A program made the translations under genes and the position numbers. The notes below the pieces were generated by a model. That model saw only the letters and a list, made by a program, of their open reading frames with translations. It did no database searches and was not told the origin of the DNA. A stretch of 64,000 bases of DNA from Isoetes taiwanensis (taxonomy: Eukaryota > Streptophyta > Lycopodiopsida > Isoetales > Isoetaceae), in the NCBI GenBank assembly GCA_021234155.1, contig JAJEKV010000073.1, forward strand, positions 4,994,001 through 5,058,000, given 5' to 3'. Of this stretch, positions 42,954 to 61,098 are shown in pieces (position 1 is the first letter of the stretch; every line of letters starts with the position of its first letter).

Positions 42954-42958
42954 TCAGC
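42954..42958 (+). repeat. Left target-site duplication TCAGC
   Basis: Identical to 61094-61098, directly outside the 5' LTR. Confidence 0.9.
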
Positions 42959-44417
42959 TGTGACGTTCCAAGTATTTATACGATATACGTATAAATATAT
43001 TGACACGTCATGCAGTAAGGATATGCCACCATGGGGTATTTTAACCTAGGGGGTTGACCTAAAAGGGATTAATTTAGCTATGCTAAATTAATTATTAAAG
43101 GTTAATTACCTATAATTAAGGAAATAATATCTAATTGACTTAATTATGATAATTGATTAATTAGGAAGGTGCCACTTGGCCAAATTCGATTGGCCACCAT
43201 GGGAATGCTAACTTGGGTCATCAAACTGGATCCCTATCCCATTTGGCCCCAGAATCGAACCAGGAGGAGCAGCCTGAGCGCCCAAGTGTTGCTGAACACC
43301 CAAGTTGCTGAAGTTGTTGCTGAACACCCAAGTTACTGAAAGATGGAAGTGCCCCATGATAACGGATCTAGCAGAAACTCGGGTTAGTGGGTAGTCTAGT
43401 TTGAGCTTCTAGGATAGCTCCTCAGTTAGTCCTCTCTGGTTATCTCTGTTAAGATTAACCCTTCTTTGATACTTAGGATTATATTTCAATTATGGATTAT
43501 GCTTTGTTATGAATGGATGGATGAATCTATGATAGTATCTCTGTTAGTATTCCGAAAGGCAGGGATTAAAGGGGGGTAGAGACCTCTGTGCTTCATGTTC
43601 TTAGTATGCTCCTAGTAGTTTCCTTAACTCCCAACTAATGCGGCCTGTGCACAAGAGACCACCGAGTCGTGGATGCTATGGAATTGCTTAGCACCAGAGA
43701 AGGGACGTAGTGGTGAAGTGGGGGTGGGGTCTTGCACGAACATAAAAGGCTCCTGGGACTCCTACAGTGGGCTAGGCCTGATAGCCGGTCACGTAGAGGG
43801 CCGGGTATGGGTCTGACACTCCATGGGTGCAGAGTTGTGACCCGTATGGGGCATCCTGCACTTTGAAGATAAAGTTAGGGGAGTAGGTCTGCACGGATGC
43901 TGGGTCGCCGATGCGCACGTATTCTCTAGCTCACCCATGGAACCGCCAGGATCCCGAAGGGGACACTTCCCCGACTGCCTCATCGGACCAGGGCTTCATG
44001 AACCCCGAGTAGGCTCTAAGGGTGATACCTTGAGTCTCAAGGCTCCTGGAAGGCTATAGTGATGCCATAGCATGATTCACTCATCCGCAAAGTGTGCACC
44101 TGAGGGGCAAGATGGAGTGGACAACCCTAGCCGATGTCCTATGCCACCAACGCCATGCCAAGATTCGGTCCGGCCGATCTCTTGAGACCTAGCCGGCCGA
44201 CCGATCCTCACCGAGTCCGAGCCGGTGTAGAACCATGGGTTTGGGTGTTTTCCCCTAGTATTAAATGTATCTTCTCTCATATTATCGGTTGGATGGATGT
44301 GCCACCCTTCGTGGTGGTATTTATGATATGATTATGTTTGTATGCTAACCTTGTTATTCACGCTCACACATAGGAGCCCCATTGAAGGCGTAATAATGAC
44401 TTCTTCGCGGTCCTTCC
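42959..44417 (+). repeat. 5' LTR, left part
   Basis: Starts TGTGACGTTCC and aligns with 59503-60960 of the 3' LTR. The first 800 bp differ by about 1-2% by eye. From about 43750 on differences are much denser and often involve CCG against CTG/CTGG. The LTR is broken at about 44417 by the nested LINE. Confidence 0.92.
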
Positions 44418-44499
44418 CACGCCAGCAGAGCCCCTCGAAGACCATGAAGCTGGCCACCAAGGAAGAGACCCCGGCGAGGGAGAGACGCCTTCCATGAAG

Positions 44500-45700
44500 A
44501 GGGAGGCCCGAGCCAAGGCCGAAGCCGACCCGACAAAGGGCCACACATTGTGCAATCCGCCAAACCCTTGGAGCCGCATCCAGCGCAGGGTTGAGGCCAA
44601 CAAAGGCACGCCTTTGCGTGCCTCCCCGACGAGGTGGAGAACATAACATCTCTGGATGTTGCGCAGCAGCTTGGTGCCGTAAAACGACGAATCACGTAAT
44701 TGGAGGATCGCAGACGACAAAGCGATGATAGCATCCGCTTGCTACAATTTGAAAGACAGCAATACCGGCAGGAGCTTGCAGATATGAGGGGGCGTGTAGA
44801 CACCGTGTTGGCAGCTATGGAAGCTGGGACGCAGGACAGGAACCGGGTAGAGCAGGAGACACTCGTAACCCTGTCTCGGATCCAGGCCGAGGTTGAGGAG
44901 GCTAAGGCCACGGCACGAGGAGCACAGGCCGCCCTCCTGTCAGAGGTTGCGGAGGCCGCCACTGTGAGACAAGGAGTCCAGGCTGCTTTGGAAGCTAGCC
45001 AGGCAGAACTGAGCGCTCTTCGGAGTAAGGATTTAGCACGAGATCGGGAGCTACAGGAGCTTCGGGCGGCCGTTGCCCAGCAAGGCAAGGGCCTCCATGC
45101 CGAGGCACATGAGCAACTCTGCCATTGCACGCGGGAGATGGCAAGACATGACAACGTCCTGCAAGAGCTGAGCTCCAGACTCCGGAGAACAGAAACCACA
45201 GCAAAGAACACACCAACCCCGCGAACCCACCAACCTACAGGGCGTCAACCTGCAACACCACTGCCGACATATCAGGGATCACGCCGGCCGCCACCACCCG
45301 AGGCCCGGCCACGCGAAATTTATGCCTCACCCACCTCTACCAACACCTGGTGCGGCCCCCGCCGAACTCCAAGAACAGAGACACAGGAGCCACAATGTGG
45401 TAGTGCGAGGCCTGACTGAGGAGTCGGGAGAACATCTCACTTCCCGGACTCGCAACCATACGATCTTGGACGGATGATGTTCCCAAAGACTGTGACCATT
45501 GGAAAGGCGAAGTCGTCATGGAATTCAAGCGCCCGATTGCCCCGGTGGTCATCTTCACGCTTGAGAGCGTGCAGGCGGGTGGCCATCCCCGCATCGTGGC
45601 CGGAAGTTGAAGGGGACGGCTCTGTACGTTGACCGGGACTTGACCCCAGCACAGCAAGAGACCCGAAGGCGTGAGCTGGCCAAAGTCAGGGACTGCCGCA
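44500..45700 (+). pseudogene. LINE ORF1 (coiled coil, RRM-like C-terminus)
   Basis: The main frame 44700-45419 is a long heptad-rich coiled coil (QYRQELADMRGRVDTVLAAM, ELSALRSKDLARDRELQELR), followed by a Pro/Thr-rich linker (TPTPRTHQPTGRQP). After frame changes, 45540-45700 gives VVIFTLESVQAGG and LKGTALYVDRDLTPAQQETR, resembling the end of L1-type ORF1 proteins (RRM plus C-terminal domain). The protein would trimerise and bind element RNA. The 285-codon minus-strand frame over the same bases is a shadow of the GC-rich coiled coil. Confidence 0.65.
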
Positions 45701-47135
45701 GACATGGAGGGGCAGCGGGGCTGGTCCGAGGAAGGATGCGGGAATTAAGGCAGCCAAACAGGGGATGCAGCACACCGCCCCTCGAGTCCCCCTCTCGAGG
45801 GGGCCCCGGCGCAATGCATCCACATCTTCCGCTCCCCCTGGGATCACCACAACCACCGGACCTGAAGTGGCGATGCATGCCACTAAATAGGGATCGCGCC
45901 TCAGCGTGGTATCCTAGAATTGCCGTGGCTTTCCATGGCGTAAGGGGACATCTCAATTCCGCCGCCATGGACATGGACCTTATCTTCCTCATGGAAACAT
46001 GCGAACATGCCGGGTCACAGCTACCCGATTTGCCAGATACCAGGCTACTCCGTCTTCAATGAGTGCACCGAAACGAGGACACGGAGGAATTATGCGGTTA
46101 CTACCGCATGCCTTTGGCCCAATCGGTCTCCCCCAGGTAAAGGCGTATTGCAAAGCACAACAGATACCGGTGGGTACGAGTGCAAAGACGGCGATGGCAG
46201 CCCTCTTTTTGGCGGCTTGCTACTTCCCACATGCCGAGAGCAACTTTTCCACACGCACTTGGATGTGGGATTGTGCAGAGCCCTATGTCGATCTATATGA
46301 TGACATACAAAGCATTCTGCACAATTGGGCAAGGTCAGCTTTTGAGATTTCAATGCGCCGCATCGGGAGAAAGGTATCCCAAAATTCGCACCTCTAGCCG
46401 AGGATGTGTTGCAAATGGACCCCGCAGAGATGGTTTGGCCAAGGGCGCCGATGACGTACCGTGTGACACGGTATGGCCCGCCACCGCCGCTGGCCGGGCA
46501 AGATCTTTGACCCTGGTCATTTGCAATGGGTCGGCACGCTGGCCGGCCCTCCGCCGCTTCACTTGTAGACGGGAGAACCGAGGAGGCACCAAAGGTGGTG
46601 GATTACGTGCTAGCGCACGAGCAATGCCTACACTTGATCACTCGCCGCTGTTCCGGGGCAGTGGCCAGACGAGGGAAGTAGACTCAGACCATCAGCCCCT
46701 GTTCTTGCAGATAGATTGGCAGGCCAACCGAGCACCCATTGCCCCAACACCCCATGTACCACGGTTGCGTCTGGACTATGATCATGCGGTGGTCTATGCG
46801 AGGATGCTTGAGCATGAGCTGCGGGAGTGCCGCAACTCCCCACACTTCAACAAAGAGACGCCCGGTGAACCAGCTCTTCGAGGGTAGGGGATGATGCTTT
46901 GGGAGAGGCCGCCTCGACGATCCACGGGGGCTGCAACCACCTTCCCCGCAATCACCGGTTCGATGACGAATGTCGGAGTTGAAACGATGGCTCCGCCAAG
47001 TGCCGGACCCCACCATTCGCCAAGCAGGCCCGGCCCACAATACCGCCGCCTTCCTCAAGACCAAGAAAGCTGTGTACCTTTAAGAAAGCACCAAAGAATG
47101 ATATTTGGTCTACTAGACCGCCACCCTAGGGCCTT

Positions 47136-47143
47136 CTGGAGAA
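47136..47143 (+). repeat. Left target-site duplication of the 753-bp transposon
   Basis: CTGGAGAA, repeated at 47897-47904. Confidence 0.9.
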
Positions 47144-47896
47144 CATGGAATAAATTACTACTTCTACATTTTTAGTATAGCCACATAGGTTTAGCTAAAC
47201 TACCTTCGAATTGGAGCTAGAAGTTTCTAACACTTGGCTAAACTAAATGGTTTTTCTCCATCATGGTTTCTTGCCTTTGGCTAAACTTTCACAAAATGTA
47301 GGTCAAATATTAGCCATCACATTATCCTTATTTTAAAATATCCAAGCCTTTGGACAAAGACATTGAACTTATTGTTATTACAATGTAATTCAATATAGAA
47401 AAATAAATGGCGCAATTATAATCATTCTTATAACTTCCTTAATATAATAATAAAACAAAGACATAAATTGACGCATAATCATATACGCACATGTTCAAAG
47501 CTCAAAGAAAAAGTGTAGTGTTCCTTCTAGCTGTGATCCTCCCTCTGATAATTAACTTCATACTTGAAATAAGAAGTTTCTACTTCAACTTCGTACTTGA
47601 AACAAGTTCTTTAATGATTTCCTAAAGTTCCTATATATCTTGGTGTCGGCTACTAGGCTAATCCATCCATTTTTCCAAGTCCACTCTTTCTTAAGTTTGG
47701 CTAATTGTTGTCCTGGAGGAGTTGTCTGGAGGTGGAGGTTTGGCTATTCGATCTAAAAACTCACTTAGTCAGCAAAAAAATTGGGCTAAAATTTTCTTTT
47801 TTTGGGCAATTTTTTCCATTTACTTTAGCCGTTTTTCTCGGCAAAAATGCTACAAAATAGCCATTTGGCTAACCTTAGCCGTTATTTTATTCCATG
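47144..47896. mobile_element. 753-bp non-autonomous DNA transposon (hAT-like MITE)
   Basis: The ends CATGGAATAAA and TTTTATTCCATG are inverted repeats. Flanks CTGGAGAA (47136-47143) and CTGGAGAA (47897-47904) are identical 8-bp target duplications. There is no transposase gene inside; the interior is A/T-rich with several TTGGCTAA words. Removal of the element and one duplication restores the LINE RT reading frame. The 8-bp duplication suggests hAT; the terminal sequence differs from the hAT at 18625, so it is a different family. Confidence 0.9.
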
Positions 47897-47904
47897 CTGG
47901 AGAA
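47897..47904 (+). repeat. Right target-site duplication of the 753-bp transposon
   Basis: CTGGAGAA, identical to 47136-47143; the RT frame resumes here. Confidence 0.9.
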
Positions 47905-50121
47905 AGGTCTTGAGTAAGCCTGCACAGCCCACAGGAAATATTACCCCGGAACAATGGGTGAGATACTTGCAGCAGCTGTATGACCCAATGGGAAGCCGGG
48001 CACCAGTACCTCCGCAGACAGGCCTAGCACTGGTCATTACTGAAGGGGATGTCATAATGGGCCTGCAACACCTCGCTAACGGGAAGGCAGCAGATTTGGA
48101 TGGTATGCAGGCAAAGCTTCTCAAGTGGGCCGGGCCCCCAATGGTGCCGGTTCTCACAACACTCTTCAACAGGGCATTGCAAGAAGGCTTCCCCCCGCAC
48201 TGGACTACCAGTAGAGTTGTGCCCATATACAAAGCAGGGGGACCCCACCCACAACTAACTATCGCACCATTATGGTCGGGCTGTCTTTGCCAAGTTGCTT
48301 GCCGATTCTTGAGCAAATGAACGACACTTTGGGCAGAGGATGGAGAAGTGCGGGCTCTCACGCAGGCAGGCTTCCGCCCCCGGCATTCTACTATTGACCA
48401 TATCTTCACTCTGCGAACACTCATAGAGGATAGCCGGAATCAACGCCAGAATCTGTACTGTTGCTTTGTGGATTTCGCAAAGGCTTTTGACACAGTGCCT
48501 CGGGATAAGTTGTGGGACAGATTGAGACAGCCTAGGGACCCCACGACTTGCGGCAATGCTATATACGATCGTACGAGGCTTGCTCCGGCCGCCTCACACC
48601 GTCGGGAGCCCGTTGTTAGTAGCATTGGGGTGCGCCAGTGGCTGCCCTCTATCCCCGACGCCTTAAACGTACATTGACCAGCTAGAAGAATGGCTAGCCG
48701 AGCACCTGGGAGGCGCCGCTTGATGCACCACATAACGGCAACTCATATATGCCGATGATGTTGACCTGCCGCATATACCCCTGGAGGACATGCAACGCCA
48801 CCGGATGCTTTGGACACTTTCTCGCCAATTCACCGACATGAGAGTTAACTTGGCCAAGACAAGGGTGTCTGCTGGTCCCATCATCCCTAAGACCCACGCC
48901 TTCCCTCATTCACTTACCAGGGCGGTAGTGGAGGTGGCTCAGTCTTATAAGTATTTGGGCGTTGAGTTTTCTACTACCACACACCGGGATGCATCCATCG
49001 TTTACGGGTCACTCATGGGCTGGAAAGCCCCAGATGCAATGCAAAACAACAAATACAAGGCAAAGCTATATGCATGGGGTCACCAGCACACTTGTTCGTG
49101 GCCTTGGTTGAACCGGTCCTCCTCTATGGGGCGTAAGTATGGGGGCCAAAGACACTTGGAACGATCCGAGCAGTACGTATACCTTCTTGGCCCCGCACCG
49201 GGAGTGAAATCCACGGTCCCATATCAGATCTTGCTCCGTAAGACGTGCTTCCTTCCATTACGAGGGCTGCTACTGAACGCCACATTATTTACTTCCGTAA
49301 GGTGGTGGCTATGGATGAAGCCCGCTGCCCAACCTTGCTTTGGCGGTGGCGATGGGCCCGCAGCAACTCAAAGCCCGGCCGGAAAGACAAGCAAGCCCGC
49401 TGGTTCTCGCTATGGAATGTGCGTGCACATACGATGTGGACCAAGGCGGCATAATCGGCGGAACGCTACCCTTGAAGCAAGATTTGATGCTTGCTTCATG
49501 GCCAAGCTTTGGGATGCAGAGGCCCCGTCACATGTCAAGGTGGCAAATTATCGACAGCCAGGTTAATCCCATGCTCACGAGGGGCCCACACCACTACCTG
49601 CGCACCCATCTACCCATGAAAAGCGCAGGTGATTGCTTCCATTCAAGACAGTGCATACCACCTCCGCATTGAGACAGGGAGATGGATTTGGGAGCCGCGT
49701 GAGGACAGAGTCCGCCGATCTTTGTCCAACGGGGTGCCATTGAGGATGAAAGTTACGCCCTCCGGCCCTGTCCGCATACCAGATATCCGGGCTCTGTATG
49801 CTCTGTTAGTTGTGCCTCATCGCCTTGCATGAGCTAATGAGCACCTACCGACCTCTGTAGGCTTGTTGGGATCGTACCTCGGACGTAATGGATACGCGAC
49901 TCGCTTATGCCCCCGTCCGACATTAACCTCACCAGATTTGTGATTATGTATATAATCAGGCAAGATGTCAGCATCCTTATTGCTACTAAGGTTTTTCCCG
50001 AAAACCCTTGGTGGCGGGGTTTTTAATCCCGGTAGTAATACGCCTGCTGCTCTCTCTTTGTACTTGGGTCCCATAGGCCAGTTGGTCTCCGTGGACGATA
50101 AAATCATATTCTATTCTATTC

Positions 50122-50236
50122 TATAGATGGCCCGAGTTAGACGAAGGGCCCTGCTCATGGCGAGATGGTTGCCATGGGAGGGGGAAGTCCCCGTATGTAT
50201 ACGCCCGAGTGTCGTATATGTTCTGGGAGCGTCACA
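50122..50236 (+). repeat. 5' LTR, right part
   Basis: TATAGATGGCCCGAG to GGGAGCGTCACA, aligning with 60979-61093 of the 3' LTR with three differences by eye. Confidence 0.92.
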
Positions 50237-50237
50237 G

Positions 50238-50249
50238 TGGTATCAGAGC
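50238..50249 (+). other. Primer-binding site (initiator Met tRNA type)
   Basis: TGGTATCAGAGC starts one base after the 5' LTR. It is the usual PBS of plant chromoviruses and copia elements and fixes the element orientation. Confidence 0.93.
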
Positions 50250-50662
50250 CGTGATTTCGGTTGCCCGAAATCATAGCACTGGCCAAACTCTAACTCGCTA
50301 GTTCGGTAGTTAGGTGGGAGTTTAAGCTAGTGTGATTGTTTAACTCTTAGGTGTTTGGCTTTGTGTTAGGTTAATGTAATAAATTGTAAGTTTTAAGAAG
50401 TCTAGGGCGACTGGGGGACCCAAGTTTGGAAGGGCTACAACTTTTTGTAGGCAGCTCGGATGAAGGCGAAAATGGTTCCAATGGATCGGGCACCTCTCAA
50501 ATACCCTAGGGGCCACGTTATCCGAGGTCAAAATGGCGACAGCAAGGCGAAAAAGTCAAAGGGGCGCTGCTGTCGGATCGAGTGTTTTTCTCGGAAAAAT
50601 AAGGGCGTATAACGCTCACAGCGCCCCATACGGTCCATCGCTAGTTATCCATCGCTAGTGCC
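50250..50662 (+). other. Element leader region
   Basis: Untranslated sequence between the primer site and the first extra gene. No conserved ORF. It may hold the packaging signal. Confidence 0.5.
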
Positions 50663-51904
50663 ATGATGCCGCGCTTCAAGCTCACCGTGGACCTAAACAA
50701 GGCGACTGTCTTCCAGTTGTATAGTGTCCTAGTAGACCATCTTGCAGATGATAGTCCCATGATCGATACTGTTCTCAACCTACTTGTGACTCATTTTACT
50801 GAGGGCCGTAGATTATGAAGCTAAATGCTGCAGACCAACCTTACACCCTTGTAGAGCAGCCTGACCAAGCTTGGGCCATTGTTAAGTTTTACCCGCTAGC
50901 CGGGCCGGAGGAGGATTCCGCAGAGCTTATCAGAACAGAGCCCAACGAATTTTGCACCTTGCTAGGGTAGAGGACCTTCAGCAAATAGCTAGTGCCCTAC
51001 CAGAAGAGCGGGCTAGCCAATTCTATTACCTTGGTAAAGGCCATGTGCTTATGTACAGGGACCAATAAACCTTCCTCCTTTCTTTTGGAATGAGGAACTA
51101 TATAGTTTTATCTTCGAGAATGTTCCCCCTACCTTCACACAAGACCGCATGGACCTCGTGCAAGCTGACATGCGCGCTCACCCGGCCCGGTACCACACGG
51201 AGATTGCCAGGCGTACACAAGTGCGCCAGAACAAGGAGGCCCGGGATGCGGAGAGAGAGCGGCTCCGTAAGACAGAGGAGGATGCCCAAAACCAGCAGGG
51301 CGGGGATCAAAATATTGATCAAGGTGTAGATCAAACTGTTGTCCAGCAAGGAGATCAACTAGTGAATCAGGAAGGAGATCAGGCTGTCGTCCCGGATAAG
51401 AAGGAGCAGCTTTGGGGTAACCGAAAAAGGAAGAATACAAAACCTATAAGGGGAGGTGTGGATTACAGGACCCGATTGCAGAAGGATGCCACCATTGGCA
51501 AGAAAACATCGGCTCAGCGATGGGAGCAGATCGTTCAGCGGGCGAAACATCCGACGACCGGCGGGAAATCCATCCCATTGCTGAAGGCAACCGTCAAACC
51601 GCGGAAGCCTCATAGATTTCGACCAGGCACAGTAGCTCTTCGCGAGATACGTAAGTATCAGAAGACTACTGAGCCATTGATTCGTCGGCTACCCTTTCAG
51701 CGGCTTGTCCGGGAAATTGCCCAAGAATTCAAGACCGACCTGAGGTTTCAGGCTTTTGCTATCCTCGCACTCCAGGAGGCTGCCGAGGCTTACCTCATTG
51801 AGATTTTGAGTGACGCCAACCTCTGCGCCATCCATGCAAAGAGGGTTACCATAATGCCTAAGGATATCCAGCTCGCAAGGAGGATCCGAGGGGAGTTTCG
51901 GTGA
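50663..51904 (+). CDS. Histone H3-core fusion protein carried by the LTR retrotransposon
   Basis: The intact frame 51149-51904 (251 codons) has a charged helical head ([20 protein letters not shown]), a Gln/Asp repeat segment (GDQ/VDQ), then [20 protein letters not shown], recalling the H3 STGGK...KKPHR tail. A complete H3 core follows: [73 protein letters not shown], ending RIRGEFR. The tail start ARTKQTAR is missing and the loop GLFEDT is replaced by EILSDA. Upstream, from ATG 50663, a non-histone domain ([20 protein letters not shown]) continues in three frames with stops. The core would form nucleosomes with H4 if folded. The 3' flank looks like a normal UTR. Confidence 0.85.
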
Positions 51905-52160: not shown

Positions 52161-53542
52161 ATGGCTCGCCCGACTCTACAGCAGTGGTACTTGGATGGAG
52201 AGCACTGGGACCCTGCGGTCCCCTTTGACGTTCTTCATCCTTATCTGCTCCAGCACGTGGATCTCATCCAGAACATGCAGGCGCACCCCGACTATGCTGC
52301 TTTTCTTCAGCTTTAGTGTGAGGAAATCGTGCCTGCATGTGTCTTCAATGAAGACGACTCACAGCTCTACCTCGACTTCCACACCCTGCTCGAGATGTTA
52401 GGAGATGATGATCATGCCCGGAATGTTATCAAGGGCATAAGGAGGCGAGGGACCGACCTCCCCATTGTTATTATAGATCGTGAAGTCTGTTTTGAGGCGA
52501 TTTGCACTGGCCATCATCATGGACCAGCATATTAAAGATGAGCAGATAGCTGCCGAGCATTCTTCTACACCAGTTCCTCCTGACCCGGAAGACGATGAGG
52601 TCGTCGACGAGCAGGATTTTGCACGGTGGAGGGAGCTCGCCACCGAAGCCCCGGCAAGCCGAGAGAAAGCCCTCAAGCTCGAAGGGCTAAACCTTCTTCC
52701 TGCCGTACTCTTGAACAACCAAGAGTACTTGATTCTGGAGGACATCATGTGGGCCTACCGCGTTATTACTGATATGCGTGGCCGCCGCAAGATAGAGGTC
52801 CTCTATGACCTTACCGAGTACTGCCAGGATGATTTCCTCGACTTTACGACACCTGTTGTGCATCCGCCACCGGTCGAGAACCTGTTAGTATATCGGTCAG
52901 AAGAGCTAGAACCCGTTGAGACCCTTTTGTCTCTTCGGCAGTTCCTATTGACTGATGCACCCCAGCCTCTTGAGGAGTAGTTTGCAGCTCACATGCGGCC
53001 TTCTCCTGTAGTTCAGCCATTGCAGATCACGATGGGAGGGATGGAGCAAGAGGAGGAAGACCTTTGGGACATCAAGACGAGTCTTCGGGATGACAAGGAA
53101 GAGGCAGAGCAGGAGAAGATCCCTGTAAACTTGGAAAAGGAAGCAGAGACCTCCAGGGATCCGCAAATCAGGGCAATGGGCAACCGTTTGACCCGATTCT
53201 TCCTTTCAGCCTTCCGGCAAGGTGAGGTCTTGTTCTTCTCCAAGAACTTGGGGCCATCTTCTGAAGCTTCTTGGTGGGCGCTCCGTGCGTTATCCACCTT
53301 GGCGGGCCATAAGAAGATTGATTACCATGCCACCACTATCACTTTGGTCCGATGAGATCTGGCTATAGTGGCATTGGGGGGGCTGCGCTAATATGCGACT
53401 CCTTGTGGCGGCACCCTTGGCCACTTGCTTGCCACCGGAGGCAACAGCTCGAGCCGCCCTCTCTGCTAGCCCCAACACCACCTTGATGCGCTACCGACCA
53501 CCTCCTCAGCCTATGGACGAAGAGGAGGAACCTAGTCCTTAG
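52161..53542 (+). pseudogene. Second extra gene of the LTR element, related to the H3-fusion N-terminal region
   Basis: Starts MARPTLQQWYLDGEHWDPAV, then VDLIQNMQAHPDYAAFLQ, which parallels [15 protein letters not shown] in the H3-fusion gene, so the two look paralogous. The reading passes an in-frame TAG (52314), a frame change near 52500, and a TAG at 52978. It includes REKALKLEGLNLLPAVLLNN, RRKIEVLYDLTEYCQDDF and AFRQGEVLFFSKNLGPSSEA. After a TGA at 53353 it may end in PMDEEEEPSP (53542). No histone core or other domain is recognised. Its role is unknown. Confidence 0.5.
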
Positions 53543-53741: not shown

Positions 53742-54200
53742 GATGAGCTCGAGGAAATCGAGGACAGAATAACCAATGAATTACGAAGGGACGATCAGGG
53801 ACCTCCCGACCAAGATTATGGCCAGCGGTATGGGGAGTATCCGGATCGGGGTGATGATTACGAAGCAGGGGGACCCATGGAAGAAGGAGAGCCTTACGAT
53901 TCAACTAAGGGCTTGGAGATTGTCAATATCCTCCGGGGGCGTGCTTTCGAGCATCTACAACAAACTCTTCGTCGTACCTGGGATTACTGGGATATGACGA
54001 AGCACGAGGCTTACGCCGACGCAAATGATCACTTATGGCAGATCTTTTATGCGCTAAGAGACCTCTTCAATCTCCTTATCATTAGTTTCACGTTAGACTA
54101 CCAGTACGTTATCATCCAGGCATGGGCTCGCTACAAGGTAGTCAGGGCAGTACCGGAGAGCGTCCGTTACTCTATCATGTACCCTTTCGCGCAGCCCTAG
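53742..54200 (+). CDS. Third extra gene (exon) of the LTR element, unrecognised
   Basis: An exon-like frame starts after a pyrimidine-rich stretch and acceptor CTTACAG (53741): DDELEEIEDRITNELRRDDQ, an Asp/Gly/Glu/Tyr-rich middle, then a hydrophobic/aromatic C-terminal half (FEHLQQTLRRTWDYWDMTKH, LWQIFYALRDLFNLLIISFT) ending at TAG 54198-54200. The upstream exon could be in 52.2-53.5 kb, making one spliced gene of both units. The 3' flank has AATAAAG at 54339. No domain is recognised. Confidence 0.5.
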   Translation, partial: DELEEIEDRITNELRRDDQGPPDQDYGQRYGEYPDRGDDYEAGGPMEEGEPYDSTKGLEIVNILRGRAFEHLQQTLRRTWDYWDMTKHEAYADANDHLWQIFYALRDLFNLLIISFTLDYQYVIIQAWARYKVVRAVPESVRYSIMYPFAQP

Positions 54201-54453: not shown

Positions 54454-57219
54454 ATGGTCAATATAGACGGTGCACGTAACGCCTCATGGCAGACACCTTC
54501 GAATGCTAGCAGATTAACACCTGAGCAGGAACTCATGTTGATGAAGCGACAGCTAGTAGAGCTGCAGGCTTATGTGTTAAATGCCAACCCACCACAGCAT
54601 ATGCAGGAGGACGGACCAGAGATACCTCCGTTACCCTAAAGTCCACCACCACGGTAGCCACTTGCACCGGAACCAGACCCTGTACCCGCACCAAGGAGGC
54701 ACCGTTCCAAACGTCGTCGAAGCTCGTCGACGGATAGTGCCACATCCTCACGATCAGCCACTTCTGTGTCTTCAGAGTCATCTATATCGTCTGGTGACCA
54801 TGCAAAGGCCAGGGACAAGGAGTACCGTAAGACGGTTGATACGACCATTACCAGTATATGGAAAAACAGAAAATTGGCTCAGTTTGATGGGAAATCCAGA
54901 GGCAGCCTGAACGCAGAGTCTTGGTTGAACAAGATGAAGGAGTTTGGGAAATCCTATGGGATGGCGGAGAAAGATACAGGAAAAGTTGCCACTACAAACC
55001 TTACAGGGGCCGCTCGTATTTGGTGGAAGGGCTATGCTAGAGCCAAGCATCTAAACAGAAGCAGATGCAAATTTAAAAAGTTTGCTAAGGCTTTTAAGTC
55101 GCATTATGTGCCCCGTGCGCACAAATGCCAACAGATTCAGACTTTTTACAGGTTCGAGCAGAAGGGTATGTCAGTTCAGGCCTACACAGATGAATTCATG
55201 CGCCTGAGGCTGTATGTTCCCGGTATGAACGAGAAGAGGGCGGTGGAGGGCTATATTGAAGGGTTGGCCCCCTCAATTAAACGAATGGTTAAGGCCATAG
55301 ACCCGAAGTCAGTTGCCGAGGCTGAGGCTAAAGCATTGAGCCTTGAAGAGGACACACCAAGAAACCAGTACCAACTCCCCGCCTCTTACTCCCAGCCGCG
55401 CTCGTACACACCTTACGAGCCCCGCTCACCAAGTCCTGGGCCTTCTCAGCAGAACTCTAATGGCCGCCAGGAAAAGAAAGTCACCTTCAGCATGCCCGAC
55501 AAACCGAGTAATGTCGGTAAGGAAGTTCGGAACCTCTTACAGTCTATTCCCAAAGAGACCCGAGAGCAGCTCCGCAAAGAGAAGGCATGTTACAGGTGTA
55601 TGCGGCCCGGGCACTTTATGCAGAATTGCCCTTATGTTACACAGACTGCCCAGCTGGCCATGGCCGACCTTGATTGGGACGAGCTCGAGGCTATACCACC
55701 TGCCGACGAGGAGGCTCCCGAGTATATCCATGGTGCGTTCCATATCCTTGCTGCCATTGAAACCGGCAATGCTGAAAGTCAGCTTGCCGTTATTTCTACT
55801 ATAGGTCAAGTAGACAGTAAGCCTTTCATAATTCTTATGGATACGGGAAGTACACATAATTTTGCTTCTCTTAGAATGGCCCAGGTATTGCAGCTTGAGA
55901 CTTTAAGGTCCCGACCGAAACCTGTGACTTTAGCCAGTGGTAAGATCAGACATACTCATGGCCGTCGCATTAACCTCAAAATGCAGTTGCTAGGTGCACC
56001 AGTTGCAATGGGTGCCGAGCTAATGGATATTGGCAAGTATGATCTGATTGTGGGCATGGAATTCTTGGCATCCGCAAAAGCTAATATAGACTGCGAAAAA
56101 TGGGAGGTTACCTTCAACGCAGCTAATGGAGCCCGCGTAACCATAAAAGGTGATCCATTCAACCCCATTATGCAGTCTATGTCCATCAGGCAGTTAGATA
56201 AAGCTATACGCAAGAATAAGTTACTTTGCGTCATCAGACTTGCCTCCATTGAGTCGGATGCCAAACAGAATCACGTAGTCGATGCATTGCCAGAGCATAT
56301 TGCTGATCTTCTCAACGAATTTAGCGATCTCTTTCCAGATGAGATCCAGAAACTTCCCCCTTTTAGAGGGGTAGAATGTGAGATAGCTTTGGAACCAGGT
56401 ACTAAGCCTACCAGTAAGGCCTCGTACCGTATGAGTCCCCCGGAATTGGCAGAGCTTAAGAAGCAACTTCAGGAGCTACTGAACCTAGGTTTCATTCGCC
56501 CTAGTGTTTCGCCTTTTGGCGCTCCTATCCTTTTTGTTAAGAAGAAGGATGGTTCCTTGAGGATGTGTATTGATTATCGGCAGCTCAATAAGCATACCAT
56601 CAAGAATCGTTATGCTTTGCCTAGGGCCGACGATCTTATTGACCAGTTGCAAGGGGCCAAGTACTTCTCAAAGATTGATTTACGCTCCGGATATCACCAA
56701 ATAAGAATTAAAGAGGAGGACATCCATAAGTGTGCTTTTCGCACTAGATACGGGCACTATGAATTTACAGTTATGCCTTTTGGATTAACTAATGCCCCCG
56801 CAACGTTCATGCGGTTAATGAATGATGTCTTCCGAGAATACTTGGATGATTTTGTTGTTATCTTCTTTGATGACATTCTCATCTATAGTAAAACCCTGGA
56901 GGAGCATGAGAAGCATCTACGGCTGGCCATGCAAAAGCTAAAACGTCACCAGCTCTTTGCCAAGCTCTCTAAGTGTAAGTTTGCCACTCCCAAGGTGGAC
57001 TATTTAGGCCATGTGATTTCAGCCGAGGGAATTGCAACCGATCCAGCAAAAATAGAGGCAGTCAAGGATTGGCCGATTCCAAGTAATGTGTCAGAAGTCC
57101 GAAGTTTCTTGGGACTGGCAGGGTATTATTGGAAATTTGTTAAGGATTTTGCAAAGATTGCAGCACCTCTTACCGACCTTACGAAGCATGAGAAAGTAAA
57201 GGATTGGATGGAACATTGA
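54454..57219 (+). pseudogene. Chromovirus Gag-protease-RT polyprotein
   Basis: One frame from ATG 54454 to TGA 57217, broken only by TAA 54637 and TAG 54655. The uninterrupted part from 54766 is 817 codons. Gag: [40 protein letters not shown]; zinc knuckle [14 protein letters not shown]. Protease: [68 protein letters not shown] and catalytic [11 protein letters not shown], followed by [10 protein letters not shown] and the thumb. The TGA at 57217 replaces a Trp expected in the RT-RNase H connection (WMEH followed by KAKVQ). Gag and pol in one frame is common in this lineage. It encodes the coat, processing and cDNA synthesis functions. Confidence 0.93.
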
Positions 57220-57891
57220 AAAGCAAAGGTCCAGGTCAGTTTTCAGAAGCTTAAGGATGCTTTGACGTCCGCACCAGTCCTCACATTGTTGGATCCAGAG
57301 AAGGATAAGTCAGTGGCAACAGATGCCAGTAAGATTGCTACCGGGGGAGTCCTCATGCAAGAAGGGAGGGTTATAGCCTACGATTCTAAGAAGATGAATG
57401 AGACCGAACAGCGATACCCTACCCATGATCAGGAATTGTTGGCTGTTGTTCGCACTTTGCGTATATGGAGACACTACCTTCTTGGTAGAAGATTCCAGCT
57501 TGATACGGATCATCAGAGTCTCCGTTATCTAACAACCCAGCCAAATCTCAACCTCCGTCAGAGAAGATGGATGGAATTTCTGGAGAAGTATGATTTTGAG
57601 ATTATGTATAAGCCTGGGAAACACAATGTGGTTGCGGACGCGTTATCACGCCATCCCTTGGTAATCCGGACCCATTGTAACGCAATTTCCACACTCACCA
57701 GCGAGTTCGAAAAACAAATAGGGCAAGCCTTAGCCACGGATCGAGAGTTCCGTGAAGTGTGGGATAGTTTGGCTAAGGAGGCACGCACAGATAAGGAACG
57801 TGAAGCTTTCCGTTCGTATAAGAAAGAGGGCAACTTGTTATATTACAAGGATAAGTTGTGTGTACCTGAGACTTCAGGAGTACGTAGCTAA
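57220..57891 (+). pseudogene. Gypsy RNase H and connection domain
   Basis: Same frame as Gag-RT after the TGA. FQKLKDALTSAPVLTLLD opens the tether; RNase H shows ATDASKIATGGVLMQ (first Asp), TEQRYPTHDQELLAVV (Glu) and LDTDHQSLRYL (Asp), then HNVVADALSRHP (last Asp). All catalytic residues are present. The frame closes at a TAG-containing shift near 57888. Confidence 0.9.
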
Positions 57892-59240
57892 TTCTCCATG
57901 ACACACACAACAGCCCTATAGCTGGACATGCAGGTTTTATGAAAACCTACTTTAAGATCCGCTCCAGTTATTTTTGGCCTTCTATGAAGAAGGACATTGC
58001 CCGGTATATTAAGCAGTGTCAGGTGTGTCAGCAAACCAAGGCTGAGCAACTAAGGATTCCAAGAGAGTTACAACCTCTGGACGTGCCCAATGCCAAATGG
58101 GAGGTAATAACCATGGATTTCGTTGTGGGCCTTCCACCCACTCTCCGTGGATATGATGCATTGATGGTAGTGGTTGACAAATTGTCGAAAATGGCTCATT
58201 TTTTGCCATGTCGTACCACGGATACAGCCTTCGATACTGCTTTGCTGTTTACAAAGGAGATCTTCAGATTGCATGGAATGCCACGGGTTATAGTATCAGA
58301 CAGGGATCCCAAGTTTGTAAGTGCATTCTGGAAAGATTTCTTTGCCACCATCCAGACCAAGCTTGCTATGAGTACGGCATATCACCCTCAGACGGATGGT
58401 CAGACAGAGCGTACCAATCGCATTATAGAGGATATGCTGCGAAGTTATGTGTGGAGTAAGCAATCACAATGGGTTGACTATATTTATTTGGTCGAGTTTG
58501 CCTATAACAGCATGAAACAGGAGTCTTCTAGAATGTCTCCCTTCATGATAAACTATGGTTATCAATGCCTTACTCCCGACACATGGCATAATCCTGTTTC
58601 TAAGGTGGAGGTTTCTCAACAACTCCTCTTAGAAATGCAAGATTTGGTTGAAGAAGTTCGTGGCTACTTATTGGCTGCATGCAGTCGTCAGAAGAGTGTC
58701 GCTGATAAGCACAGGACCCCACGGGTATTCCAGGTGGGCGAATCGGTTTGGCTCAAGATTAAGGTTAAACAAGCCAAGCTTAAGATTGGTAACTGCAAGA
58801 AGCTGGCACCCAGATGGGCTGGGCCGTTCAAGATCATTCAACGTGTTGGAAAACAGGCATATCGCTTGGATTTGCCACCCCGCTTGAAGATCCACAAGGT
58901 CTTTCACGTGAGTCTTCTGAAGCAACATACCCCAGATCCAGAGGAGATCTTGGATACACCCACCCTCCTTGAAATGACAGAAGAGCATTTAGATATAGTG
59001 CCTGAAGCTCTTCTTGATCGAGCTTATAAGCAGACCAGAAGGACTCAAATGTTGCAATACTTGGTTAAGTGGAAACACTTGCCAGTTGAAGATGCTACGT
59101 GGGTGATGAAGATAGGCCTTGAGAAGCACTATCCAGACTTCATGCGGGAATCTCAAGGCCGCACCATCAACGATACTATCAACCCCACATCGGCGGCCAG
59201 TGAGCAGTACGTGACCTGCCCATGTATAGAGGGTTGCTGA
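57892..59240 (+). pseudogene. Chromovirus integrase with C-terminal chromodomain
   Basis: The zinc finger begins in the shifted frame at HDTHNSPIAGHAGFMKTY and ends CQVCQQ. The catalytic core has ITMDFVVGLPPTLRG (Asp), VIVSDRDPKFVSAFWKDFF (Asp) and HPQTDGQTERTNRIIEDM (Glu). A GPY/F module follows (WAGPFKIIQRVGKQAYRLDL, HKVFHVSLLKQH). The C-terminus is a chromodomain: PEALLDRAYKQTRRTQMLQY, LVKWKHLPVEDATWV, LEKHYPDF. Chromodomains steer integration toward marked chromatin, classically methylated H3 (family knowledge). Only the frameshift near 57890 separates it from pol. Confidence 0.93.
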
Positions 59241-59502: not shown

Positions 59503-61093
59503 TGTGACGTTCCAAGTATTTATACGATATACGTATAAATATATTGACACGTCACGCAGTAAGGATACGCCACCATGGGGTATTTTAACCTAGGGGGTTG
59601 ACCTAAAAGGGATTAATTTAGCTATGCTAAATTAATTATTAAAGGTTAATTACCTATAATTAAGGAAATAATATCTAACTGACTTAATTATGATAATTGA
59701 TTAATTAGGAAGGCGCCACTTGGCCAAATTCGATTGGCCACCATGGGAATGCTAACTTGGGTCATCAAACTGGATCCCTATCTCATTTGGCCCCAAAATC
59801 GAACCAGGAGGAGCGGCCTGAGCGCCCAAGTGTTGCTGAACACCCAAGTTGCTGAAGTTGTTGCTGAACACCCAAGTTACTGAAAGATGGAAGTGCCCCA
59901 TGATAACGGATCTAGCAGAAACTCAGGTTAGTGGGTAGTCTAGTTTGAGCTTCTAGGATAGCTCCTCAGTTAGTCCTCTCTGGTTATCTCTGTTAAGATT
60001 AACCCTTCTTTGATACTTAGGATTATATTTCAATTATGGATTATGCTTTGTTATGAATGGATGGATGAATCTATGATAGTATCTCTGTTAGTATTCGAAG
60101 GCGTGGGATTAAAGGGGGGTAGAGACCTCTGTGCTTCATGTTCTTAGTATGCTCCTAGTGGTTTCCTTAACTCCCAACTAATGCGGCCTGTGCACAAGAG
60201 ACCACCGAGTCGTGGATGCTATGGAATTGCTTAGCACCAGAGAAGGGACGTAGTGGTGAAGTGGGGGTGGGGTCTTGCACGAACATAAAAGGCTCCTGGG
60301 ACTCCTACAAAGCTAGGCCCCGATGGCCCGGTCACGTGAGAGCCGGGTATGGGTCCGACACTCCCCCGTGCGAGGGTGTGACCCGTGATGGGGCATCCCC
60401 GCACTTTGAAGATAAAGTTAGGGGAGTAGGTCGGCACGGATGCTGGGTCACCGATGCGGCAGGTATTCTCTATCTCACCCATGGAACCGCTGTGATCCTG
60501 GAAGGGGACACTTCCCTGACCTGCCTCATCGGACTAGGGCTTCATGAACCCTGGAGTAGGCTCTAAGGGTGATACCTTGAGTCTGCGTCTCCAGAAGGCT
60601 ATAGTGATGCCATAGCATGATTCGACTCATCTGCAAAGTGTGCACGGGAGGGGCGGATGGAGTGGACAACCCTAGCCGATGTTCTATGCCAGCCAACGCC
60701 ATGCCAAGATTCGGTCTTCTGATCTCTTGAGACCTAGCCGTCAGTCGATCCTCACTGGAGTCCGAGCTGGGGTAGAACCATGGGTTTGGGTGTTTTCCCT
60801 AGTATTAAATGTATCTTCTCTGTTATTATCAGTTGGATGGATGTGCCACCCTTCATGGTGGTATTTATGATATGATTATGCTGTATGCTAACCTTGTATT
60901 CATGCTTCCGCGACATAGGAGCCCCATTGAAGGCGTGGGCCGAATGACCCCTCTGTGTCCTTCACTCGAGCATCTTTCTATAGATGGCCCGAGTTAGACG
61001 GAGGGCCCTGCTCATGGCGAGATGGTTGCCATGGGAGGGGGAAGTCCCCGTATGTATATGCCCGAGTGTCGTATATGTTCTGGGAGCGTCACA
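59503..61093 (+). repeat. 3' LTR (1,591 bp)
   Basis: Uninterrupted copy from TGTGACG to CGTCACA. It contains a perfect short repeat CTGAACACCCAAGTT (59837 and 59863). TTATACGATATACGTATAAATA near the start is palindromic. It serves as reference for the split 5' LTR. Confidence 0.94.
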
Positions 61094-61098
61094 TCAGC
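61094..61098 (+). repeat. Right target-site duplication TCAGC
   Basis: Identical to 42954-42958, directly after the 3' LTR. Confidence 0.9.

Follow-up and report, generated by a model that had tools for sequence, protein, structure and literature searches.

The window, the whole stretch of DNA analyzed here, comprises 64,000 nucleotides of Isoetes taiwanensis contig JAJEKV010000073.1. It holds a Ty3 chromovirus with both ends present and a histone H3 gene upstream of gag; a LINE-type insertion interrupts the 5' LTR. The features of this chromovirus, in window coordinates, are as follows.

42954..42958, no strand: target-site duplication TCAGC, 5' side, adjoining the outer end of the 5' LTR at 42959
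42959..44425, plus strand: 5' LTR, first part (TGTGACG...), from a blastn match with the 3' LTR (42960-44391) plus alignment; the end at 44425 is approximate, is the start of the LINE insertion, and its last ~35 bp were placed by eye
44426..50118, plus strand: LINE-type insertion within the 5' LTR (RT fragment, TATTC-repeat tail), boundaries approximate
about 50115/50119..50236, plus strand: 5' LTR, last part (...CGTCACA), from the repeat search and blastn
50238..50253, plus strand: primer site (PBS) TGGTATCAGAGCCGTG, read in the window
50663..51904, plus strand: ORF A, consisting of an N-domain, a Q/D-rich linker, a short H3-like tail and an H3 core
51545..51607, plus strand: short H3-like tail (KHP-S/T-TGGK ... 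RK), columns 345-365 of the 23-copy alignment
51608..51901, plus strand: histone H3 core, P38 to the final residue, from Pfam, PDB matches and copy alignments
52161..53542, plus strand: ORF B, orphan protein of ~440-460 aa, frame-broken in the window copy, matched in 10 of 10 other copies
53742..54200, plus strand: ORF C, orphan protein of ~150 aa, matched in 9 of 10 other copies, from alignment
54454..57891, plus strand: gag, protease, RT and RNase H (Retrotrans_gag, Ty3_capsid, RVP_2, RVT_1), with stops in the window copy
57888..59240, plus strand: integrase (Integrase_H2C2, rve, Chromo) with a C-terminal chromodomain at about 58998-59141
59503..61093, plus strand: 3' LTR, 1591 bp, from blastn and alignment
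61094..61098, no strand: target-site duplication TCAGC, 3' side, adjoining the 3' LTR end at 61093

An initial annotation, made from the letters of the window, had described both LTRs and a target duplication. The LTR pair and the duplication TCAGC are real, but the LTR (1591 bp) is larger than a 118-bp repeat and its 5' copy is split by a LINE. The 118-bp direct repeat was considered as a whole short LTR and rejected, being only the terminal stretch of a 1.6-kb LTR; only the last ~118 bp of the 5' LTR adjoin the PBS because the inserted LINE splits it. LTR homology breaks off and then picks up again around this insertion, which contains an RVT_1 match (E=4.3e-07, window:48321-48674). The LTR pair differs by 8 transitions over the first 590 bp (K2P 0.014), and the distance over all 1422 aligned positions is 0.064. 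Divergence is very uneven, the GC-rich second half (43770-44425 versus 60310-60970) showing numerous indels and clusters of differences, and this may be due to base-calling error in methylated sequence rather than to age.

The PBS of the window copy, upstream of gag and ORF A, reads TGGTATCAGAGCC and is presumably of the initiator-tRNA-Met type; its first 12 bases are matched exactly in seven of ten other copies. The distance from PBS to H3 core is 1370 bp in the window copy compared to 1638-1775 bp in the seven copies with a PBS found, and its leader or N-terminal region is shorter than in those seven. As had been annotated, the H3 frame sits downstream of the PBS (50238) and upstream of gag, in a Ty3 element for which Pfam matched gag, protease, RT, integrase and chromodomain. 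The order gag, PR, RT, RH, INT was found by Pfam in the window copy and likewise in several others (e.g., L017 and L066), and the Chromo match at the integrase C-terminus scored 31 bits against a cut-off of 25.1 (E=2.4e-07).

In the window copy, the frame 51038-51904 is open and its C-terminal part is a complete H3 core, borne out by matches to Pfam Histone (E=1.5e-43) and, as the top PDB match, to an H3.3 (E=1.5e-50), with H3.3 and H3.1/H3.2 chains the best. The sequence covers the full H3 histone fold with no gaps (Pfam, PDB), and Histone was matched in all 19 open ORFs scanned. The window core differs at 14 of 95 residues from the compared H3.3 and likewise at 14 of 95 from the compared H3.1. 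The N-terminal part of ORF A is frame-broken between about 50816 and 51037, and this copy is damaged in ORF A, ORF B, gag and pol. AlphaFold predictions from single sequences were poor (mean pLDDT of 48 for the ORF A piece and 57 for ORF C) and were not used.

The initial annotation had taken the intact core beside a broken N-terminus as a sign of constraint. The constraint itself stands in the comparison of copies described below, but intactness in one copy says little: with substitution low over the first 590 bp of the window LTRs, 98 codons free of stops would be expected in any case, and the stop-free core was rejected as a sign of constraint. In neutral runs with 14 replacements, about half contained no stop. 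Replacements as conservative as those observed relative to H3.3 arose in 7 and 15 of 2000 neutral runs under two transition weights, and in 65 and 122 of 2000 relative to H3.1. This pattern is supportive of constraint on the window core and is superseded by the comparison of copies.

To follow the gene across the genome, 1,658,258,908 bases in 1110 sequences were searched with the window H3 core. This query gave 8666 first-look candidates, a number that does not equal copy number, of which 150 were scored; all 150 matched at 91-100% identity. Other queries gave 9101 (canonical H3.3), 2843 and 9172 (L092) first-look candidates, again with 150 scored each. The matched core had no stop in 134 of the 150 scored loci, and in 35 loci the frame ran for at least 400 aa with no stop. 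From among the loci most like the window, 68 were fetched, none of them from the 16 with a stop in the core. ORF A is open from an RFKL motif near its start to the H3 end in 23 of these 68 copies (399-460 aa), with an ATG at most three residues before the motif in 22 of the 23; the N-terminal break of the window copy is not general to the family. The annotated fusion of the core to a non-histone N-terminal region recurs, as the same orphan N-domain was matched in 66 of the 68 copies, the two without it being L050 and L051.

Left and right flanking pieces were read for ten of the 23 open copies. All ten have LTR sequence upstream, nine in element orientation and one (L041) inverted. ORF B lies downstream in all ten, ORF C in nine (it is missing in L041), and the gag of the H3-bearing family in nine. 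The right-hand piece of L024 gave only 25-40% matches and is evidently another element, and L011 has gag with no pol of its own within the piece. That other copies of the family would carry the H3 ORF was thus borne out, and these sequence comparisons indicate that the H3 gene is a family-wide gene of the element and not a one-off capture.

Selection was measured as dN/dS by Nei-Gojobori with Jukes-Cantor correction, which is near saturation here and makes the values rough; ranges are 95% bootstrap. Pooled over the 23 open copies, dN/dS was lowest in the H3 core at 0.043 (0.027-0.063), with the N-domain at 0.109 (0.080-0.140), the short tail at 0.144 (0.067-0.263) and the linker at 0.202 (0.148-0.266). 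Among all 68 copies (2278 pairs), core dN/dS declines with synonymous divergence from 0.237 at pS<0.05 through 0.140, 0.084, 0.057, 0.051, 0.046 and 0.036 to 0.026 at pS>0.6, the pattern expected if the gene is selected while its element is active and decays afterwards; choosing loci close to the window and leaving out stop-bearing copies biases these values somewhat downwards, most of all in young pairs. The core is not neutral across copies, which had been posed as a decisive point for the family.

We also compared dN/dS gene by gene in the ten elements plus the window, using rows where ungapped matches cover at least half of the piece. The H3 core and RT both gave 0.034 (11 and 5 rows), followed by integrase at 0.051 (4 rows), RNase H at 0.060 (6 rows), gag at 0.110 (7 rows), and ORF B at 0.122 (11 rows); ORF C was saturated. 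Constraint on the core thus appears about as strong as on RT, placing the core with the polymerase genes. The H3 fusion is almost certainly a constrained gene of the element. Since dN/dS is low in copies near synonymous saturation, this appears to be a gene long held by the element and not passive cargo.

The canonical H3.3 query separates host genes from element genes. Of its 150 scored loci, 15 matched at 98-99% identity over all 135 residues, and below a gap lay 135 loci at 71-86%. A phylogeny built on the H3 core sets the five canonical sequences apart from every element sequence (support 100/97), in a tree of few columns where many forks are unresolved; both results indicate that canonical host H3 genes are separate from element H3. 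The divergent H3 lineages L091-L093 fall between canonical and element sequences. Element cores share 78-85 of 96 amino acids with a host H3 gene at a DNA identity of 0.68-0.74, and synonymous sites between element core and host H3 are saturated. Both host genes read (L089 and L090) have E77 in place of D77, one with H87 and the other with S87. E77 is also found in 16 of the 23 open element copies, which fits, without proving, capture from an H3 gene of the element's own host lineage. When L092 (C1077:2561977) was used as query, all 150 scored loci of the 9172 first-look candidates matched at 84-100% identity, with open frames of up to 508 aa. The L092 type forms a second abundant H3-bearing repeat family, known here from its H3 loci.

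In the element core, 41 of 96 positions are invariant across all 68 copies and both host genes. At positions 64, 86, 87, 102, 105, 107 and 134, all 68 copies depart from both host genes read, and changes are also present at 89 and within 101-107. Positions 86-89 are, we assume, part of the patch read by deposition chaperones (contacts at 87-90). Among the 23 open copies, the final loop and helix hardly vary, and D123 and R116, which we take to be H3-H3' contacts, do not vary at all. Residues R42, T45, R49, R63, R69, R72, R83, Q85, K115, R116 and T118, presumably DNA contacts, are each kept in at least 20 of the 23. Plant CENH3 is marked by a lengthened loop 1 and a divergent alpha-1. A CENH3 origin is disfavored, as loop 1 reads (E/D)FKTDLRFQ as in canonical H3 and has no insertion.

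The canonical N-terminal tail with K4, K9 and K27 is absent, and in its place are a short STGGK-containing stretch and the long fusion. In its placement, the short tail, which has S/T-TGGK and then RK directly ahead of the core, is reminiscent of H3 10-27. Its score against the H3 tail was reached by 40, 209, 434 and 953 of 1000 shuffles in four copies and is not significant. Homology of the short tail to the canonical H3 tail is only suggestive, and the loss of K9 is read from position because the likeness was not significant by shuffling.

Searches of Pfam and PDB returned no confident relative for the N-domain, ORF B or ORF C, and hhalign found no homology between the ORF A N-domain and ORF B or between ORF B and ORF C. 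Weak N-domain matches to GNAT acetyltransferases (PDB E=0.015; NCBIfam E=0.095 in one of 21 members) are probably due to chance; a GNAT-like N-domain (e.g., L040:529-1128) was not accepted, with no acetyltransferase in Pfam and no acetyl-CoA motif in the aligned stretch. The presence of the N-domain in 66 of 68 copies, its open frame in 23 of 68 and its dN/dS of 0.109 suggest that it is not dispensable. No relatives were confirmed in IMG/VR viral contigs for the H3 core, the integrase or the ORF A profile. ORF B is open in two of the ten other copies, at 443 and 462 aa. In the spacer at window:52040-52161, a TATAAA box and a CATTAGGGTTT-like motif are conserved upstream of the ORF B start, with TATAAA present in all 11 aligned sequences (the window and ten copies), as if ORF B had its own promoter. 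ORF C has no start codon near and is preceded by an acceptor-like site; it is possibly joined by splicing.

The H3-bearing element resembles plant Ty3 chromoviruses (the Tcn1, Galadriel/Galahad, Tekay, Reina and CRM clades) in its TG...CA LTRs, PBS, gag-PR-RT-RH-INT order and C-terminal chromodomain, and differs from them in three extra genes between PBS and gag, of which the first is the H3 fusion. Ogre/TAT elements likewise carry a gene upstream of gag, an accessory ORF whose function is unknown. We know of no histone domain in the Ogre/TAT extra ORF, nor of a fused 200-aa domain in the bracovirus histone H4, CpBV-H4. CpBV-H4 is said to join host nucleosomes and to act through its N-terminal tail (PMC5423620); as described there, it is like the present case in that a viral genome encodes a host-type core histone, and unlike it in being an H4 of a polydnavirus rather than an H3 of a retroelement. 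Giant DNA viruses (Marseilleviridae, Medusavirus) encode histones, some fused and some forming nucleosome-like particles (PMC9145170, PMC11222145, PMC11500106). These are described as histone-histone fusions or separate histones, whereas the Isoetes element has a single H3 on a non-histone domain.

Chromovirus elements are present in the lycophyte Selaginella (PMC3350952). In Dothideomycete fungi, hAT DNA transposons have amplified H3 to hundreds of copies, mostly truncated and RIP-inactivated, with all but the original broken by RIP in one clade, and with tens of possibly functional hAT-carried copies in Pyrenophora (PMC6710886). In both cases host H3 sequence rides on a mobile element and is present in hundreds of copies; the Isoetes case is unlike it in being an LTR element whose H3 is fused to a new domain, constrained, and far from host H3. 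In place of the hAT features (TIRs, 8-bp TSD, hAT transposase), the H3-bearing element has LTRs, a 5-bp TSD and RT/INT.

The initial annotation knew of no chromovirus with an H3-fold ORF, and the open-licence PMC literature yielded no paper recognized as describing a histone-encoding LTR retrotransposon; the qualification to be added is the captured H3 of fungal hAT elements (PMC6710886). The word "retrotransposon" occurs 0 times in a review of viral histones, as does "Histone" in the main text of the paper describing the I. taiwanensis genome (PMC8566536). That paper gives an assembly of 1658.30 Mb in 204 scaffolds and 909 contigs from Nanopore, Illumina and Bionano data, and a repeat library from which repeats with plant-protein similarity were removed before masking (PMC8566536). 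Filtering as described there would tend to drop H3-bearing families, and H3 ORFs may remain among the annotated genes. A captured histone on a mobile element is already known, and an LTR element with a constrained H3 fusion is the far end of that kind.

Transposons are kept silent by modification of histone H3, with K9 methylation foremost, and the chromodomains of chromovirus integrases are thought to read marks of this kind. A retroelement with its own H3 would, if it uses it, supply part of the chromatin that governs it. The anatomy and its recurrence are established, as are long-standing purifying selection on the core and the N-domain and the preservation of most residues of the H3 core. 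We propose that the coding sequence of a host H3 was acquired long ago by a high-copy lineage of Ty3 chromoviruses in Isoetes taiwanensis. The captured H3 would have become the first gene, ORF A, in which a 200-aa orphan N-domain is followed by an acidic/Q-rich linker, a shortened tail resembling that of H3, and the complete core. Since ORF A is kept with the polymerase genes and its nucleosome surfaces are largely intact, it most likely acts in chromatin. The ORF A protein would pair with host H4 and enter nucleosomes, putting its N-domain on chromatin, and we consider its incorporation probable.

Given a tail without the K9 context and a core altered at 86, 87, 89 and 101-107, we propose a special nucleosome, with altered tail and chaperone patch, that could shield or steer element chromatin. 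It would help the element if copies resisted K9-type silencing or if sites for integration complexes were marked. K9 methylation of H3 is central both to silencing and to what chromodomains read, so an H3 lacking the tail that bears it could leave the chromatin of the element open to expression or flag sites for insertion. We favor this account as a whole as the best explanation, with some reserve; that anti-silencing or targeting is the purpose of ORF A we hold at somewhat short of even. Our most far-reaching suggestion is tentative: the element may make its own nucleosome component, an H3 variant unable to carry K9 methylation with a new fused domain, loaded onto element copies to keep them expressible or to mark favored insertion sites in silent chromatin, a strategy that would be common to at least one further H3-bearing family (the L092 type). 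If true, a good part of the Isoetes taiwanensis repeats would be built on captured histones.

An alternative that we consider unlikely has the H3 domain working before integration, coating or condensing element cDNA or particle content together with H4, in the way that giant viruses use histones to package their DNA, and the N-domain binding capsid. The complete H3 core, the retention of ORF A in elements that also hold gag-pol, and the existence of giant-virus histones, some forming nucleosome-like particles (PMC9145170, PMC11500106), are consistent with such packaging. However, the frames scanned gave no match to any further histone, so that host H4 would be needed, and the N-domain has no link to gag. 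The H3 domain might also serve as bait for H3 chaperones or H4, leading the element complex to replication forks or open chromatin or disturbing host H3 deposition. Such a role would suit the fixed changes at 64, 86-87, 102, 105, 107 and 134 and the nearly invariant C-terminal loop and helix, yet the presumed DNA-contact residues are kept in at least 20 of 23 copies, more than pure bait needs, and we regard it as rather improbable.

Very little probability attaches to a host variant H3 family (e.g., centromere- or gamete-specific) that merely lies beside repeats and is selected for the host. CENP-A-like residues (we take A107 of the element core to be one) and the existence of divergent H3 lineages (L091-L093) speak for it. 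Against it, the fusion and its neighbors recur in ten copies (LTR in 10, one inverted; ORF B in 10; own-family gag in 9), canonical H3 stands apart (15 loci at 98-99% versus 135 at 71-86%; tree split 100/97), and loop 1 lacks the insertion that marks CENH3. Passive gene capture, with the H3 sequence as unused cargo copied with the element, has a precedent in the hundreds of inactivated H3 copies described for fungal hAT transposons (PMC6710886), and the window copy is indeed damaged, with ORF A, ORF B, gag and pol all affected. This explanation is scarcely tenable against a dN/dS of 0.043 that goes down to 0.026 with depth, 78-85 of 96 amino acids identical to host H3 at 0.68-0.74 DNA identity, and 35 of 150 loci whose frames run for at least 400 aa with no stop. 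By these comparisons, passive capture appears already refuted at the family level and would be true only of single dead copies.

Further repeat sequences lie in the window outside the H3-bearing element. A second Ty3 RT fragment at window:11944-12254 (minus strand) has 71.5% DNA identity to the H3-bearing element. A LINE-type RT lies at window:19821-21215, a DUF659 fragment, presumably hAT-type, at window:24226-24873 (minus strand), and a copia-type RVT_2 at window:61854-63092.
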